Source of the DNA: an uncultured Bacteroidaceae bacterium
GTDB lineage: Bacteria; Bacteroidota; Bacteroidia; Bacteroidales; Bacteroidaceae
Direction of reading: 5' to 3'
DNA length: 40,447 nucleotides
Assembly (NCBI GenBank): GCA_905235525.1
Contig: CAJOLW010000029.1
Coordinates: forward strand, 1 to 40,447
The notes under the pieces: generated by a model
The model's database searches: none
What the model saw: the letters and a program-made list of their open reading frames with translations, nothing else
What the model was told of the DNA's origin: nothing
Position numbers and translations under genes: made by a program
In this document: positions 5,717 through 20,172 of the stretch, piece by piece
Position numbering within the stretch: position 1 is the first letter of the stretch
Layout of the letters: every line of letters begins with the position of its first letter

Positions 5717-6826
5717 TTATCTGCTTCCCTTCCTCCTGTTGCACTCCCTGCACAGCATTTGGCAGTTCTCAATTATGGTGCGACCACCTTCACGCCAAGG
5801 GGTGATGTGGTCGCCCTCCATAAACTCAAAGTCGAACTCCTTGCCACAATGAGGGCAGATGTGATGTTGCTGTTCCCACACCGCCAGTTTGATATCTTCG
5901 GGGAAGGCGCGGAGGTCGAGGTAGTGCTCGTCACCCGTCAGCACATAGTGCCTCTGAATTTCGCTGTCGCGCATCAGTGCTGAGATTTGCTTCCACATAT
6001 CGACAGTGTCGAGCATCTTCTCATGATAGCGGTCATAGAGCAATGCCCAATCCAAGCCTTTCATAATCTTCTTGAACTTCTTCATGTCAAAATTCGTGAT
6101 AGCCCAGTTCAGCACATTCTGGAAGTATGTCCACAGATTGTTGGCGTTCGGGTCGTGCTGATGGTCAGACATATATCCTACCACCGACTGCCGCTTGCCG
6201 TTGCGTGTCTCGTGGTCAGCCATCCATTGGAGGGCTTGCTTCAAGAAGTCCTGACGGATAGGAGTGCCGTTCACCAAGTCCTTGCCCAATCGGTAGGCTC
6301 CGCAGTTCGACTTGGAGAAGTGGCGTTTGGCATCGGTGACGAAAGGCCCTGCAAAGATGGCGTTGTTGATTTCCTGTTCGTTGAGCGGTTTGCCGGCTAT
6401 GTTGATGGTCTTGAACCATTCCAACTTTTCAGACGGTTCACCTTCGCACACATAGATGGTCAAGGGATAGTCGAGAATCTTCTTCTGGATGTCCTCTGGC
6501 TGGTTGAAGAAGTTCTTGAAGTCGATGGAGAACTTGCCATCCACATACTCACACAGCGAGAGCGTCCTCTGCTGCCCGTCCATCACTTCGTAGGGACATT
6601 CAGCATCGTCGCTCCGTTTCACCCAATACATCACATTGAGCGGATAGCCATGCAGCACGGTGTTGACGACCGCCTGCTGCTCCTTCTCATTGTAGATGAA
6701 CTCACGCTGATAAGGCGGACGGATGTCGAGTTGTCCGTTAAAACCACGAACGCCCTGTTCGTCGTTGTTCACATAACCACAGGTGATTTCACCCACAGTC
6801 ACTTCTGTTCTCTTTATTGTCATCAT
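5717..6826 (-). CDS. DUF262-HNH protein (probable nuclease partner of the methyltransferase)
   Basis: A 369-residue protein from the ATG at 6826, which overlaps the methyltransferase stop in an ATGA arrangement. The open frame reaches back to 6880, but the coupled start is more likely. The N-terminal part is a DUF262 (ParB-like, GmrSD N-terminal) domain with the segments RPPYQREFIYN and EVMDGQQRTLSL, known to use nucleotides. The C-terminus is an HNH nuclease: CPHCGKEF, then GDHITPW and NCQMLCRECNRRKGS, supplying zinc cysteines and a catalytic His. The likely role is restriction of DNA lacking the partner's methylation. That function is inferred from the pairing. Confidence 0.85.
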   Translation of the reverse strand: MMTIKRTEVTVGEITCGYVNNDEQGVRGFNGQLDIRPPYQREFIYNEKEQQAVVNTVLHGYPLNVMYWVKRSDDAECPYEVMDGQQRTLSLCEYVDGKFSIDFKNFFNQPEDIQKKILDYPLTIYVCEGEPSEKLEWFKTINIAGKPLNEQEINNAIFAGPFVTDAKRHFSKSNCGAYRLGKDLVNGTPIRQDFLKQALQWMADHETRNGKRQSVVGYMSDHQHDPNANNLWTYFQNVLNWAITNFDMKKFKKIMKGLDWALLYDRYHEKMLDTVDMWKQISALMRDSEIQRHYVLTGDEHYLDLRAFPEDIKLAVWEQQHHICPHCGKEFDFEFMEGDHITPWREGGRTIIENCQMLCRECNRRKGSR

Positions 6827-7893
6827 AAGGCTTTGGGATGTTTGTTGCGAATGAGGATTCTGTGGTATTTCTTTTGGCATAATACACCATTATACATTTT
6901 CTGTCGTGACTTGTATTCTTTGAATTTGGGCATCTTTCTCAAGGTTTCCAATTTAATACATGGTTCACAACAACTTAAAATCTCAAATTGATTTGGATTA
7001 AAATAGTATAGGAAAGTTATAGGGACCCCTATATACCCATCATAATCAAACGGAACAGCGAAGGTGTCCGACACATCTATAGCATCGTAATCTTCGTAAT
7101 GAGGATACTCTTCTTCAGTATAATGGCATACCAAATCTAATTTCTCCTGACGTTTTGGTATATCCATATTAGTAAACCATGTAACTCCAGAAACCCTAAT
7201 CATACCTTTCCTGTGGTCGCTTGCAGTTGCTGTATCCTCATATGGTGAGACGAAATGGCCAACAGCCCCCTTAAATCCATATCCCAGCCATATTTTGTTT
7301 GCTTTAATCAAAGGGAAAACCTCTTTATAAGGGATGGCATTTTGATTTCCTACAATTAGGAACTTCTTCTCATATTTCATGAGTTGCCCTATATATTCCC
7401 TAAACAATGAGAACGGTGGATTGGTCACCACAATATCAGCCTCTTTCAAAAGTTCTATGCACTCTTGGCTACGGAAGTCGCCATTGCCATGCAGTGACGA
7501 TAGAACATTCTTGTCATCTTTTATTAGAAGTTCCACGTCTGTTAGATCGATTGCTCCATCTCCATTCACATCTGGCACTTCCGTTATCTCAACCTTGTAG
7601 GCAGTCTTTTTCTCATTGCCTTCTGCATCAAGCGAAAACAAAGACAATTGAGTGCCAGCGACAGGAGAGCCATCATAGCACGTGCAAATTAACTTCTTCA
7701 ACCCCAACTGATTAAAACGCAGAGCAAAATATTTGAAGAAGTTACTTTCGTAAGGGTCATCACAGTTGCACAGCACAACCTTGTCGCGAAAGTGCGACCA
7801 ATAATGTTGCAACTCTCGCTCAATGTCCGTCAACTGCGTATAAAACTCATCCTTTTTTGCTGTTTTTGCAGCATTTAGATTCTTGTTAGCCAT
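6823..7893 (-). CDS. EcoRI-family adenine-specific DNA methyltransferase
   Basis: A 356-residue protein opening MANKNLNAAKTAKKDEFYTQ, the characteristic start of EcoRI-family N6-adenine methyltransferases. The catalytic motif IV is NPPF (ADIVVTNPPFSLF, near residue 159). The SAM-binding region is likely VLCNCDDPYESNFFKYF. The C-terminus KYHRILIRNKH matches the usual end of the family, so the gene is full length. It is the first gene of a two-gene unit overlapping the DUF262-HNH gene by 4 bases. It lies behind the leader RNA candidate at 7943-8205, and its start codon sits inside an inverted repeat. The recognition sequence cannot be predicted. Confidence 0.87.
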   Translation of the reverse strand: MANKNLNAAKTAKKDEFYTQLTDIERELQHYWSHFRDKVVLCNCDDPYESNFFKYFALRFNQLGLKKLICTCYDGSPVAGTQLSLFSLDAEGNEKKTAYKVEITEVPDVNGDGAIDLTDVELLIKDDKNVLSSLHGNGDFRSQECIELLKEADIVVTNPPFSLFREYIGQLMKYEKKFLIVGNQNAIPYKEVFPLIKANKIWLGYGFKGAVGHFVSPYEDTATASDHRKGMIRVSGVTWFTNMDIPKRQEKLDLVCHYTEEEYPHYEDYDAIDVSDTFAVPFDYDGYIGVPITFLYYFNPNQFEILSCCEPCIKLETLRKMPKFKEYKSRQKMYNGVLCQKKYHRILIRNKHPKAL

Positions 7894-7942: not shown

Positions 7943-8205
7943 GAAAAAGACATGGACGATATTCCCATCCATGCTTCAACGGCCCTAGGAAGCCTAAATA
8001 CACCAGATAAGTCACGCCCATGCATAATACACAGACGTTTGCGACTTATTCTTTCGGCATATTAGTTCTTGAATTTCCTAGGTTCTTGAAGCAATTCCGA
8101 ATAACAGCAAACGCTTGTTAATAAATTTAATATGTCCGTACCAGCACCTCCGCTGAGGCTCCACCCTGCCCATGCAGGCATCACGAATGACGATTTGCCA
8201 GTACT
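7943..8205 (-). ncRNA. Structured leader RNA candidate 1
   Basis: A minus-strand RNA of about 260 bases. It starts behind a TTTG-N20-TTAATTTG promoter and ends at a terminator hairpin (CATGGA 7968-7973, TCCATG 7951-7956) followed by a U-run at 7943-7950. P1 pairs 8086-8093 with 7972-7979 and P2 pairs 8075-8082 (CCTAGGAA) with 7984-7991, with internal loop GAA/GCCG between them. A further helix pairs 8043-8049 with 8007-8013. Upstream small hairpins include CCTGC-ATGG-GCAGG. The same plan recurs at 19160-19559. It could be a cis-acting attenuator of the methyltransferase or a free RNA. The family is not recognised. Confidence 0.55.
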
Positions 8206-8211
8206 CATTTG

Positions 8212-8243
8212 CAAATTAAGCACATTTTCCGTTATCGACCAAA
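8212..8243 (-). promoter_or_regulatory. Promoter of leader RNA 1
   Basis: Minus-strand TTTG (8240-8243), 20 bases, then TTAATTTG (8212-8219), one mismatch from TAnnTTTG. Expected transcription start is near 8205. It is the only good promoter between the exonuclease terminator and the methyltransferase. Confidence 0.6.
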
Positions 8244-16835: not shown

Positions 16836-18068
16836 TCAGCAAACGGGGTTCTTTACTTTTTCTTTCTGTTTCTCAAACTCTTCCCGTCTCCCCTCCAATT
16901 CCAACTTGCGGAAGAGTTTGTTCCAATAATAGTTATTGGCACGTACACGAGCCTTATGCATCTTGCAGATGGCGGTGGAACGCTGATAGAGCGTGTGCGT
17001 GTCGGCTGCATCGTAGTTCTCACCCTGGCACCATGCACAGCCACTCGCCACTTCACAATTAACACATTCCTCTGCACTTTGAGTAGTTCGGTCAAGCGTC
17101 AAGAACGGGCGGAGTTTGTTTGAATCAATACCATCCTTCACATTCCCAATAATCCATGCAGGTTTGTTCCTCAAGGAATACTGAGCAAAGCGTGTGCAAG
17201 GATAGAAGTTGCCTGCGGCATCAATCGCCAACATCATACCGGCACCGCACCAATTCCGGTTATCCGTGTCAGGATTAAGCGGTTTTCCAATATGCTCCAT
17301 GAAGAAAGAGCAGAAGTGTTCCTGATACAATTCATGATCAATAATCACATCTGCCAAGTCCACCAATTGTTGTTCAAATACAACATCATCACCATCTTTC
17401 CACACATCCTCAAACACACAATTGATAGCAACATCCTTTATACCCAACTCATATAAATGCAAAACACTCTCGCAAATATATGGTATATCATCAGAACTGA
17501 TAGTCACTTTAGTGTTACCACCCGGAAACTGGCTGAGCCACAAAGGAATATTCCTCACTACATCTTGATAAGAACCACGTCCACTCTTTTTGTATATACG
17601 ATTTAAGTCATGTTTCTTCTCCGTTCCGTCAATCGTGATGCCTATGCTAAGATGCGTCCTGTTCTTTTCTATAAAATGTTGTATCCGAGGCTCATGGTAG
17701 TTGATACCATTAGTGGAGAACGAAAAACGATAAGAATTGAACCAGGGATGTTGAAGCCGATACATCTCCGTTTTAATATAATCGCAAATTCTATCAATCA
17801 GTTCTATCTCCAAGAAGGGCTCACCGCCAATAAAGTCCCAAACAACTGACGGTTGGTTGTAATCTTTTTGTGACAAGACATAATCGATCGCCTGTCTGGC
17901 AACATCCCATGACATACGCTCCTTGCTGTTCTTCCCAACAAGATAACAATACTTGCATGCCAATTGGCAGTCCTTGGTTACTATAAAAGTAATGTTCTTG
18001 GCAACACCATTCTCCCACAGAGGAATGTCTTGACGGATTTTATTATCCATAACGATACGACTGTCCAT
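16836..18068 (-). CDS. Radical SAM peptide maturase, CXXX-repeat target type
   Basis: About 410 residues from the ATG at 18068, which has a GGGGGA sequence just upstream. Starts at 18119 or at 18050, overlapping the precursor stop by 8 bases, are also possible. TKDCQLACKYCYL carries the CxxxCxxC motif (Cys34, Cys38, Cys41) for the 4Fe-4S cluster that cleaves S-adenosylmethionine. DFIGGEPFLE is the GGEP motif. The C-terminus is a SPASM domain (CTRFAQYS, CVNCEVASGCAWCQGE, CKMHKARVRANNYYW) for auxiliary clusters. The adjacent substrate is the Cys-repeat lipoprotein. Thioether or other crosslinking at Cys is inferred. Confidence 0.88.
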   Translation of the reverse strand: MDSRIVMDNKIRQDIPLWENGVAKNITFIVTKDCQLACKYCYLVGKNSKERMSWDVARQAIDYVLSQKDYNQPSVVWDFIGGEPFLEIELIDRICDYIKTEMYRLQHPWFNSYRFSFSTNGINYHEPRIQHFIEKNRTHLSIGITIDGTEKKHDLNRIYKKSGRGSYQDVVRNIPLWLSQFPGGNTKVTISSDDIPYICESVLHLYELGIKDVAINCVFEDVWKDGDDVVFEQQLVDLADVIIDHELYQEHFCSFFMEHIGKPLNPDTDNRNWCGAGMMLAIDAAGNFYPCTRFAQYSLRNKPAWIIGNVKDGIDSNKLRPFLTLDRTTQSAEECVNCEVASGCAWCQGENYDAADTHTLYQRSTAICKMHKARVRANNYYWNKLFRKLELEGRREEFEKQKEKVKNPVC

Positions 18069-19074
18069 AACATCCCCCTCGGCAAGAGTACAAACAACCT
18101 GAGTAGCAACTCGAATCACATCCTCCTGTACAAGTTCTTGTGCACAATAAACGACAAGTTATATCACAGCCACTCGAACAACCTCCACTACAATTGCTGG
18201 AACACTCTGCCGTGCATGATGACTTACATCCTCCCGTACAACTGGCTGAACATTCTCCCGTACATCCGCTGGAACAAGTTCCCGTACACCCACTATAGCA
18301 TCCTCCTGTACATGTCGATGAACAAGTTCCGCTACAACTACCTTCGCACGAATTGCCGCAACCGGAAGCACAAGAACTCATGCAACCTCCTGTACAGGAA
18401 TTGTAACACGTTTCAGAGCAATTACCAGAGCATGCTGCTGTACAATCTGAACAAGAAGAATTAACAATCATTCTTTCATTCCATGAATAGAGAAACACAT
18501 CCCCGACGACAAAACATATATAACCCCAATAATTTGCCACCTTTCCACACACAACGACTGTATCGCCTTCCTTCAATACAGAATTCGTCTTAATTTGAGC
18601 TACTATACTTTCACCGTCATCATCGCCATCGGTCAAAGTAACATTTACAACGTAAGAATAATCCCAACCGTCTGGATTAGGACCATCAAATTCAACACAA
18701 GAATCAACGATACCTTTAACATAAAATCGGGCTGATGATGCCTCTCCATCATTTAGCGTTTTTGCGTATGCAATCACTTCTGCCACACTAAAAGGATGAG
18801 AGACGGAACCATCACCTCTATCGGCTTGTGGTGAATCGCCTCCTTCATGCGGTGAATTGCCTCCTTCATGCGGTGAATTGCCTCCTTCATGTGGTGAATT
18901 TTCATCACCTCTCCCATCATCCCCACTGCCATCATCACCATCGTCCTTACTACATGAAGTGAAAAATGTTGGTCCAAATGCAACAAGACCAATAAATGGA
19001 AGGACACGTTTTCCCGCCTTCTTGAAGAACTCACGCCGTGACTGAAGTTCTTCACTGTTCATCTTTTTCTCCAT
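18043..19074 (-). CDS. Tat-targeted lipoprotein with 33-Cys CXXX-repeat tail (modification substrate)
   Basis: A 343-residue precursor. Residues 13-17 are RREFF, a twin-arginine signal, followed by a hydrophobic stretch and the lipobox FFTSC with Cys41. An acidic linker holds three NSPHEGG-type repeats. Residues about 95-200 resemble an OB-fold (VAEVIAYAKTL, FYVKGIVDSC, LKEGDTVVVCGKV). From Cys211 to Cys335 a cysteine occurs at every fourth residue without exception (32 cysteines, plus Cys208), with mostly Gly, Ser and Thr between. This is the CXXX-repeat target that gives the family its name. The finished protein is probably a crosslinked, surface-anchored rod. It is the first gene of a six-gene operon ending in tatAC. 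Confidence 0.87.
   Translation of the reverse strand: MEKKMNSEELQSRREFFKKAGKRVLPFIGLVAFGPTFFTSCSKDDGDDGSGDDGRGDENSPHEGGNSPHEGGNSPHEGGDSPQADRGDGSVSHPFSVAEVIAYAKTLNDGEASSARFYVKGIVDSCVEFDGPNPDGWDYSYVVNVTLTDGDDDGESIVAQIKTNSVLKEGDTVVVCGKVANYWGYICFVVGDVFLYSWNERMIVNSSCSDCTAACSGNCSETCYNSCTGGCMSSCASGCGNSCEGSCSGTCSSTCTGGCYSGCTGTCSSGCTGECSASCTGGCKSSCTAECSSNCSGGCSSGCDITCRLLCTRTCTGGCDSSCYSGCLYSCRGGCYGQSYRYG
18830..18900 (-). repeat. 21-bp tandem repeat in the lipoprotein linker
   Basis: Three copies of a 21-bp unit (18830-18850, 18851-18871, 18872-18892) plus 8 bases of a fourth. The copies are nearly identical and encode NSPHEGG. Recent duplication and variable linker length between strains are likely. 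Confidence 0.85.
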
Positions 19075-19159
19075 AATAATAACAGTTTGAGATTAAAAAA
19101 GATTAAGCCTATAAGTCTCCAGATTCGGCTGCGGTTAAAGATTCATGTTAAGCCCATAG

Positions 19160-19559
19160 ATACAAAAAACGTGAGACCTGCACCAGTTGCTCGTCCCACT
19201 CTTCGAGGCGCCTAGGAATTGCCCAACAATCAAGAACGAGCAACCTAGACCTCACGCCGATATATTATATAGGCACACTCTATGCGACACAGTCATTGTC
19301 ATACAATCAAGCGACCTCCAGCCGGAAGTGCACTTTCTTATATAAATAATGTGTACAAAGAGGGCTGTCATATAACATACCCATGAGCATCTATCGTTGC
19401 ATTGTCCTTTGATTGTCTCGTTAAGTTTCCTAGGCTTTCCGAAGAGTCAAGAACAAAGCGCGTGATAAACGCTTTTTCCATATATGGTATCCCCACGGCA
19501 CTGGTCCGCCACAGCGAAGGAGCCTTTCCCGCCACTCTGAAGGTGGCTTCGGCATGAAG
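19160..19559 (-). ncRNA. Structured leader RNA candidate 2
   Basis: A minus-strand RNA of about 400 bases upstream of the CXXX-repeat operon. P1 pairs 19440-19446 with 19199-19205 and P2 pairs 19427-19434 (CCTAGGAA) with 19211-19218, with internal loop GAAAG/CGCCT. A third helix pairs 19409-19416 with 19226-19233. It ends in a terminator: GTGGGAC (19193-19199) with GTCTCAC, then six T near 19166. An alternative long helix joins GTTGCTCGT (19235-19243) to ACGAGCAAC (19185-19193). Near the 5' end GCCAC-GTGGC forms a hairpin. P1 differs from candidate 1 but keeps its pairing. No family recognised. Confidence 0.55.
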
Positions 19560-19565
19560 ATGTGG

Positions 19566-19597
19566 CAAAGATATATACTTTCTGAAAAATTTCCAAA
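19566..19597 (-). promoter_or_regulatory. Promoter of leader RNA 2 and probably the CXXX operon
   Basis: Minus-strand TTTG (19594-19597), exactly 20 bases, then TATCTTTG (19566-19573). Expected start is near 19559. I see no other good box between the leader terminator and the lipoprotein gene, so the operon may depend on read-through from here. Confidence 0.7.
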
Positions 19598-19676
19598 AAA
19601 AATCCTAAAAAAATGGAAAAGAAACAGGAAAAAGCAAACTGATAAAAGGAGGAATGTCTATTTTGAGAAAAAATCG

Positions 19677-19684
19677 TACCTTTG
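19677..19684 (+). promoter_or_regulatory. -7 box of the HsdR-N-like gene
   Basis: TACCTTTG lies inside the open frame beginning at 19654, so the start must be one of the ATGs at 19699, 19702 or 19705. Expected transcription start is only a few bases before them. Confidence 0.65.
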
Positions 19685-19698
19685 CAGGAAGGGATGTA

Positions 19699-20172
19699 AT
19701 GATGATGCAGCCGTTGAACCTGCCGCCATTTGAGGCAAACATCAAGAAGATGGACGGAATGGTGAAGATACTCGATGTGCTTCGCCGCAAGTTTGTGGCA
19801 CTCACGCCAGAGGAGTGGGTGCGGCAGCATTTTGTGCATTTCCTGACGGAACGGAAGGACTACCCTGCCACGCTGATGGCAAATGAGGTGGCGGTGTCGC
19901 TGAACGGCATGAGCAGAAGGTGCGACACGGTGGTGTATCGGCAGGAGGGGTTGAAGCCACTGATGATTATCGAATATAAACGCCCCGATGTGGAAATCAC
20001 ACAAAAGGTGTTTAATCAGATTTGCAGGTATAATATGGTGTTGGAAGTCGAGTGGCTGGTGGTGAGCAATGGGTTAAAGCACTATTGCTGTCATGTGGAC
20101 ATCAAAAACGGTGGGTATGCCTTTCTGGAAGACATACCCACGTATGAGAAATTATTGAAAAATGAAGAGTGA
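19699..20172 (+). CDS. Type I restriction HsdR N-terminal-like protein
   Basis: A 157-residue protein from the first of three consecutive ATGs downstream of the promoter. It resembles the stand-alone HSDR_N family of Bacteroidetes. RRCDTVVYRQE followed by LMIIEYKRPDVEI gives the D-(x)n-E-x-K core of a PD-(D/E)XK nuclease, and EEWVRQHFVHFLTE is the conserved helix before it. There is no helicase domain and no HsdM or HsdS gene nearby, so it is not a working type I enzyme. These small proteins are common in the phylum and their role is unknown. It converges on the zinc-ribbon gene. Confidence 0.82.
   Translation: MMMQPLNLPPFEANIKKMDGMVKILDVLRRKFVALTPEEWVRQHFVHFLTERKDYPATLMANEVAVSLNGMSRRCDTVVYRQEGLKPLMIIEYKRPDVEITQKVFNQICRYNMVLEVEWLVVSNGLKHYCCHVDIKNGGYAFLEDIPTYEKLLKNEE

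Follow-up and report, generated by a model that had tools for sequence, protein, structure and literature searches.

The minus strand of the window (the whole stretch of 40,447 nucleotides analysed, from an uncultured Bacteroidaceae bacterium) carries a 5′ leader of about 400 nt in front of a CXXX-repeat/radical-SAM operon. Comparative sequence analysis placed this leader in an RNA family, class I, whose two sets of helices are backed by covariation and whose promoter and gene positions recur among its members. The RNA is likely to be a cis-acting transcription attenuation leader, in which a long stem would compete with an intrinsic terminator. An earlier note on this DNA had placed a class of structured leader RNAs, kept paired by compensatory substitutions, before the CXXX operon, and both covariation and gene positions bore this out.

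The range 19160 to 19597 coincides exactly with a minus-strand unit bounded by the T tract and the −33 promoter element, with a predicted RNA 5′ end near 19560 and the end of the terminator at 19164. The inverted arms described earlier (19198-19218 and 19427-19447) are present, the terminator adjoins P1 as claimed, and P1-P2-P3-P4 form one long imperfect stem. The features of the locus are as follows.

19566-19597, minus strand: Bacteroidetes-type promoter, TTTG (19597-19594), 20 nt, TATCTTTG (19573-19566), conserved in homologues
19549-19559, minus strand: P0 5′ strand CTTCATGCCGA, where the RNA is predicted to begin; it complements the terminator 5′ half at 19250-19260
19455-19475, minus strand: H4 hairpin, AAAGCG-loop-CGCTTT, the most conserved hairpin in the alignments
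19440-19447, minus strand: P1 5′ strand ACTCTTCG, partner 19198-19205
19427-19434, minus strand: P2 5′ strand CCTAGGAA, partner 19211-19218
19409-19416, minus strand: P3 5′ strand ACAATCAA, partner 19226-19233
19396-19400, minus strand: P4 5′ strand GCAAC, partner 19240-19244
19198-19244, minus strand: 3′ strands of P4, P3, P2 and P1, from which the terminator hairpin also builds its loop and its upper 5′ arm
19164-19256, minus strand: intrinsic terminator CGTGAGGTCT...AGGTCTCACG-TTTTTT, from homologue alignments (lower stem 19247-19256/19170-19179, upper stem 19236-19244/19186-19194, T6 19164-19169)
19107-19129, minus strand: post-terminator element D, GCCGAATCTGGAGACTTATAGGC, of which GAGACTT (19119-19113) complements the terminator 3′ strand
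18043-19074, minus strand: CXXX-type precursor, first gene of the operon, start codon 19074 (TIGR04117, 30.7 bits, below the 50-bit cut-off)
16836-18119, minus strand: radical SAM maturase of the CXXX-repeat target family (TIGR04115, 638 bits)

Within the genus, homologous DNA was found in 34 of 81 relatives, and alignments of these homologues back the choice of strand. A plus-strand leader of the HSDR_N-like open reading frame (ORF) at 19654 was rejected on two grounds: a TTTG..TACCTTTG promoter belonging to the ORF lies beyond the element, and it is the minus strand that carries the conserved promoter and terminator. The ORF itself (HSDR_N domain, 19654-20172, plus strand) is divergent from the leader and has its own promoter of the Bacteroidetes type. 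The segment 19455-19475, which resembles a plus-strand terminator, corresponds to H4, a conserved internal hairpin. The P2 word CCTAGGAA occurs 5 times in the window (0.75 expected), a count reached in 0 of 100 shuffles. Behind the CXXX-type precursor, which has a twin-arginine/lipobox-like start (judged by eye) and for which a protein search of the genome contigs found no relatives, the operon continues with the TIGR04115 radical SAM maturase, a TIGR04119 maturase and TatC.

Distribution of class I

Two covariance models of class I were used, R1 for the central 116 positions and R2 for the 3′ 100 positions. The home genome has 2 copies by both models, the second of which precedes a UpxY-type NusG paralogue. 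Under strict filters, by which weak matches are lost, R1 matched 182 of 301 genomes (22 of 30 genera) in the family. At the level of the order it matched 17 of 198 genomes, and the one match among 247 genomes of the phylum was the home genome itself. The maximum per genome in the family was at least 12 (12 candidates were scored per genome). An exact-pattern scan returned 58 stretches, with carriers including Xylanibacter, Palleniella, Hallella, Prevotella and Paraprevotella; a phage-borne element was rejected, the pattern having 0 matches in viral contigs.

The copies analysed were high-scoring R1 matches from the family together with exact-pattern matches, a non-random set that includes related copies. 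Ninety-nine sources yielded 100 R1 and 95 R2 matches, which gave 95 ordered pairs with a spacer of 19 to 126 nt (R2 was absent from 5 of the 99 R1-positive sources), and these were reduced to 87 distinct copies for statistics. More than 400 nt of room was available in 85 copies, a first gene was taken from 84 and P3 was scored in 83; flanks sufficed in 83 copies for the promoter, T-run and ORF tests, in 84 for P0 and in 86 for D.

A few loci stood out. Hallella multisaccharivorax DSM 17128 (L140) carries two copies, which lie on opposite strands and some 2.3 kb from each other; a UpxY-like ORF follows one of them, and an abiF RNA match lies beside the second. At L013, L093 and L143, the leader lacks the 3′ domain and is followed by a tyrosine-recombinase-like ORF (by eye), as if an integrative element had used the leader as its insertion site. 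Three copies (L102, L105 and L124) lie in MAGs labelled Clostridium sp. or Bacillota, which are perhaps binning errors given the otherwise Bacteroidales distribution.

No Rfam 15 family matched the class I locus, either at the gathering score or with E as high as 5, and this held for the SAM riboswitch and T-box models. The JUMPstart and EAR (epsC) models gave no match there either, nor did the 6S model, and the element has a leader position instead of that of a standalone gene. This agrees with the earlier note, in which the RNA was not recognised as SAM-I/II, 6S or T-box. An Rfam scan of five relatives returned only abiF, beside the copy in H. multisaccharivorax. Bacteroidales RNA motifs from the same host group described in 2010, among them Bacteroidales-1, Bacteroid-trp and 6S-flavo (PMC2864571), differ from class I, which matches no Rfam family at E up to 5. 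Among the open-access papers listed by the literature searches, no title or abstract start described this leader.

Covarying helices and alternative folds

P1 consisted of standard pairs in 777 of 781 cells (99.5%) across the 87 copies, with 222 changed on both sides; when 3′ strands were swapped among copies, 72.8 ± 1.1% were paired. P2, whose strands were located by string search for scoring, scored 17.3 with its own strands versus 11.1 ± 0.39 with swapped strands (87 copies), and the longest run of P3 was 5.5 versus 3.2 (83 copies). P4 is almost invariant, so its pairing (93.5%, versus 93.7% swapped) provides no covariation test and says nothing either way. For the terminator lower stem the excess was modest (18.9 versus 17.7 ± 0.17). 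D scored 16.7 with the terminator 3′ strand of its own copy versus 13.9 ± 0.3 with swapped strands (86 copies). P0 reached a longest run of 10.7 with the terminator 5′ half, versus 9.9 swapped and 8.4 with shuffled upstream sequence (84 copies), a statistically modest difference. Sequence conservation in the internal loops was very high.

From these complementarities, the terminator 5′ strand has P0 and P4 as alternative partners and the 3′ strand has D. The terminator loop contains the 3′ strands of P1, P2 and P3, and because strands are shared, the long stem and the terminator are mutually exclusive; covariation in P1 to P3 backs this alternative to the terminator. A pseudoknot reading of P2 was rejected, as P1 to P4 are nested and only P0 and the terminator cross them. 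In nested folding, with P0 left out of the count and stem formation unforced, the fold in which the terminator 3′ strand is free was close in energy to the fold with the terminator hairpin (mean difference, −3.6 kcal/mol; standard deviation, 4.5; 87 copies) and was the lower of the two in 70 of 87 copies. The unconstrained minimum (mean, −137.8) lay below both modelled states (−126.8 and −123.2), which indicates that mixed folds compete. The covariation is strong enough for decisive mutants to be designed directly.

Leader position, mechanism and rival explanations

Among the 85 copies with room, 74 had a same-strand ORF of at least 60 amino acids within 160 nt and 11 did not; a larger opposing ORF was found in 1. 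The median distance from leader to gene was 77 nt. A −33/−7 promoter pair preceded the RNA in 65 of 83 copies and 80 of 83 had a T run of at least 4 at the terminator, and the post-terminator spacer contained a full promoter in 0 of 83 copies (a lone −7-like motif in 2). Same-strand genes, with a promoter upstream and none in the spacer, identify the RNA as a leader, and class I has both a promoter of its own at the front and an intrinsic terminator ahead of the gene. A covariance-model search with inspection of the following genes, the kind of check suggested in the earlier note, recovered a covarying family in which most copies precede a same-strand gene, and no Rfam family matched the locus.

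The commonest of the 84 first genes, among the families listed (25 of 47 Pfam families and, in a second list, 25 of 52), were LRR_5 (BspA-type leucine-rich repeats; 17), CXXX targets (7) and UpxY/NusG (4). Outside the repeat models and NusG, nearly all of the 25 of 47 Pfam families listed occurred once or twice. Hydrophobic N-termini were found in 57 of 75 first genes of at least 100 amino acids versus 41% of 344 control ORFs, by a crude criterion and with non-genes among the controls. At six loci (L088, L131, L025, L043, L044 and L045) a short helix-turn-helix-like ORF (by eye) follows soon after the leader. No SAM-dependent family was prominent among those listed, and the link to S-adenosylmethionine (SAM) drawn earlier for both elements is not supported for class I, class II being the exception.

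In the attenuation reading, RNA polymerase would start just upstream and transcribe about 400 nt. The nascent RNA would fold into the long nested stem P1-P2-P3-P4, perhaps with help from P0 at the 5′ end, and this stem would occupy the 5′ half and loop of the terminator, allowing read-through into the gene; alternatively, the terminator hairpin would form and transcription would stop. After read-through, the terminator 3′ strand would pair with D, about 20 to 45 nt before the start codon, and lock the read-through state. A signal at the conserved internal loops (a small molecule, an RNA-binding protein or another factor) would presumably shift the balance. We infer that the two states alternate in vivo and that such a signal exists, and the leader probably decides whether the gene is switched on. 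In Prevotella, translation is reported not to be inhibited by a strong structure placed 20 bp before the start codon (PMC3155529), and for this reason D would more likely act on RNA folding than by blocking ribosomes.

Riboswitches and intrinsic-terminator attenuators such as SAM-I and T-box resemble class I in being 5′ leaders with a conserved core and a stem that excludes a terminator near the start codon; class I differs in having no Rfam match, in preceding diverse accessory genes instead of one pathway and in the extra post-terminator strand D. The heterogeneity of the first genes, unusual for a metabolite sensor, counts against the attenuation reading, as do the near-invariance of P4, the slight excess of P0 over its controls, the unconstrained folds lower than both modelled states and the 11 of 85 copies with no ORF in range. 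More tentatively, and somewhat short of probable, the leader RNA may be a new class of signal-sensing RNA switch, so far found only in Bacteroidales, that places an accessory regulon under one common signal. That signal could be a second messenger or an indication of phage attack, and a cascade of four strands (P0, terminator 5′, terminator 3′, D) would couple transcription to what happens close to the start codon. The regulon would comprise restriction-modification and helicase defence genes, BspA-type surface proteins, CXXX radical-SAM peptides and capsule antiterminators.

Protein-dependent antitermination, the foremost rival, appears unlikely: a NusG paralogue such as UpxY/LoaP or another RNA-binding protein would recognise the conserved loops and let the polymerase pass. 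JUMPstart/ops, LoaP and EAR leaders recur in front of horizontally variable operons, as class I does; class I differs from them in having no Rfam match, no obligatory NusG paralogue and a large covarying structure. UpxY-family genes made up 4 of the 84 first genes, including the one that follows the home genome's second copy (L182). UpxY is reported to keep transcription from ending early in leaders that precede upxY (PMC7819879), and these Bacteroides capsule leaders share with class I the host order and the premature termination predicted for it. However, most of the 84 first genes belong to other families, and a single NusG-domain match (E ≤ 0.001) was found in each of five RNA-bearing genomes that are 95 to 99% complete: G098 (99%, 6 copies), G123 (99%, 5 copies), G016 (98%, 3 copies), G132 (95%, 5 copies) and G214 (96%, 5 copies). 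Near-complete genomes with 3 to 6 copies and one NusG-domain match, barring a missed weak one, suggest that the dedicated paralogue on which UpxY-dependent leaders rely is not needed here; a protein partner other than NusG is possible.

By analogy with put, the RNA could modify RNA polymerase so that it reads through horizontally acquired operons, an improbable reading with which the very high conservation of the internal loops and the many accessory targets (defence, capsule and surface) would agree; against it, class I carries a terminator at the end of the RNA itself, and the strands of that terminator have other possible partners. That the element is a standalone small RNA ending at its terminator, with the neighbouring gene incidental, was the other option offered in the earlier note and is highly improbable. 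It has a promoter and terminator of its own, and the window holds a small RNA of a paralogous Bacteroidetes family, FopS (RF04319; 36426-36495, plus strand; 76.2 bits). The 74 same-strand genes in 85 copies at a median of 77 nt (1 larger opposing ORF) argue against it, as do the covariation of D, which lies beyond the terminator, with a terminator strand and the 0 of 83 spacers with a second full promoter. Leader-peptide attenuation, in which ribosomes on a short leader ORF would choose the structure, is hardly credible, since behind the conserved core motif ATGCYCATGGG (its ATG found in 69 of 83 copies) the frame runs for 4 to 86 residues, or stays open through the 100 codons read (3 copies), with no conserved length.

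The class II sister leader and the wider family

For the attenuation reading, the other candidate element of the earlier note (candidate 1) provides a relative within the same window. Its features are as follows.

7944-8243, minus strand: class II leader, supported by homologue alignment and covariation
8212-8243, minus strand: promoter-like TTTG (8243-8240) and TTAATTTG (8219-8212)
8119-8003, minus strand: core
8093-8086/7979-7972, minus strand: P1
8082-8075/7991-7984, minus strand: P2
8049-8043/8013-8007, minus strand: P3
7974-7944, minus strand: terminator
6823-7893, minus strand: EcoRI-type adenine DNA methyltransferase behind the leader (PF13651, 474 bits)

Both candidate sites show P1, an asymmetric internal loop, P2 and additional helices, as had been described. 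The plan common to the two classes comprises P1, P2 within GAA..TTC, P2′ followed by GCC, P1′ and the terminator. Class I models matched candidate 1 weakly: R1 gave no more than 2.9 bits, and R2 gave 11.7 bits (E of 0.0054) in 491 bases in which a neighbouring hairpin already reached 10.6 bits. Rfam gave three sub-threshold matches to unrelated families. Class II homologues were found at 11 further loci in the genus, and the class II model R3 matched 42 of 201 genomes (12 of 30 genera).

A 21-row alignment was built from 14 of 27 loci and 7 of the 11 further genus loci, with the more divergent ones excluded. In its helices, 97.2% of cells were paired (84.6% shuffled) and covariation was 0.418 (0.183 shuffled; reached in 0 of 500 shuffles), with 22 further pair types versus a shuffled mean of 21.8. 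Over the 27 loci, the best-helix score was 21.0 versus 15.4 ± 0.58. The covariation first read from the two copies of the window spans two subclasses and by itself proves little; within each subclass it is strong.

Both classes have the P1/P2 core, in which GCC stands directly after P2′ and ahead of P1′, and L236, L240 and L244 are intermediates, L236 carrying the class I motif GGGCAA-P2′-GCCTC. Class I and class II are regarded here as one superfamily, of which candidate 1 represents a divergent sister class, and the kinship of the two elements was recognised correctly from the outset.

Among the 28 class II first genes scanned (including that of L242, whose offset is unreliable because its contig is truncated), 11 EcoRI-type and 2 HsdM-type methylases all use SAM. 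Many of these methylases look orthologous, so their occurrences are not independent events. Another 4 first genes were HKD/Snf2-type helicases, and 2 had WYL domains, defence-associated according to PADLOC. As first genes are often SAM-dependent methylases, SAM is a possible signal for class II.

An attenuator leader is of a known kind; what is new, as far as Rfam and the open literature searched extend, is the family together with its sister class, the D strand and the set of accessory genes. With them, gut and rumen Bacteroidales gain a widespread family of leader RNAs that had not been catalogued, in which one control device recurs before defence, surface, peptide and capsule genes. Finding the signal of the leader would tell when phage defence and surface change are switched on in these bacteria.
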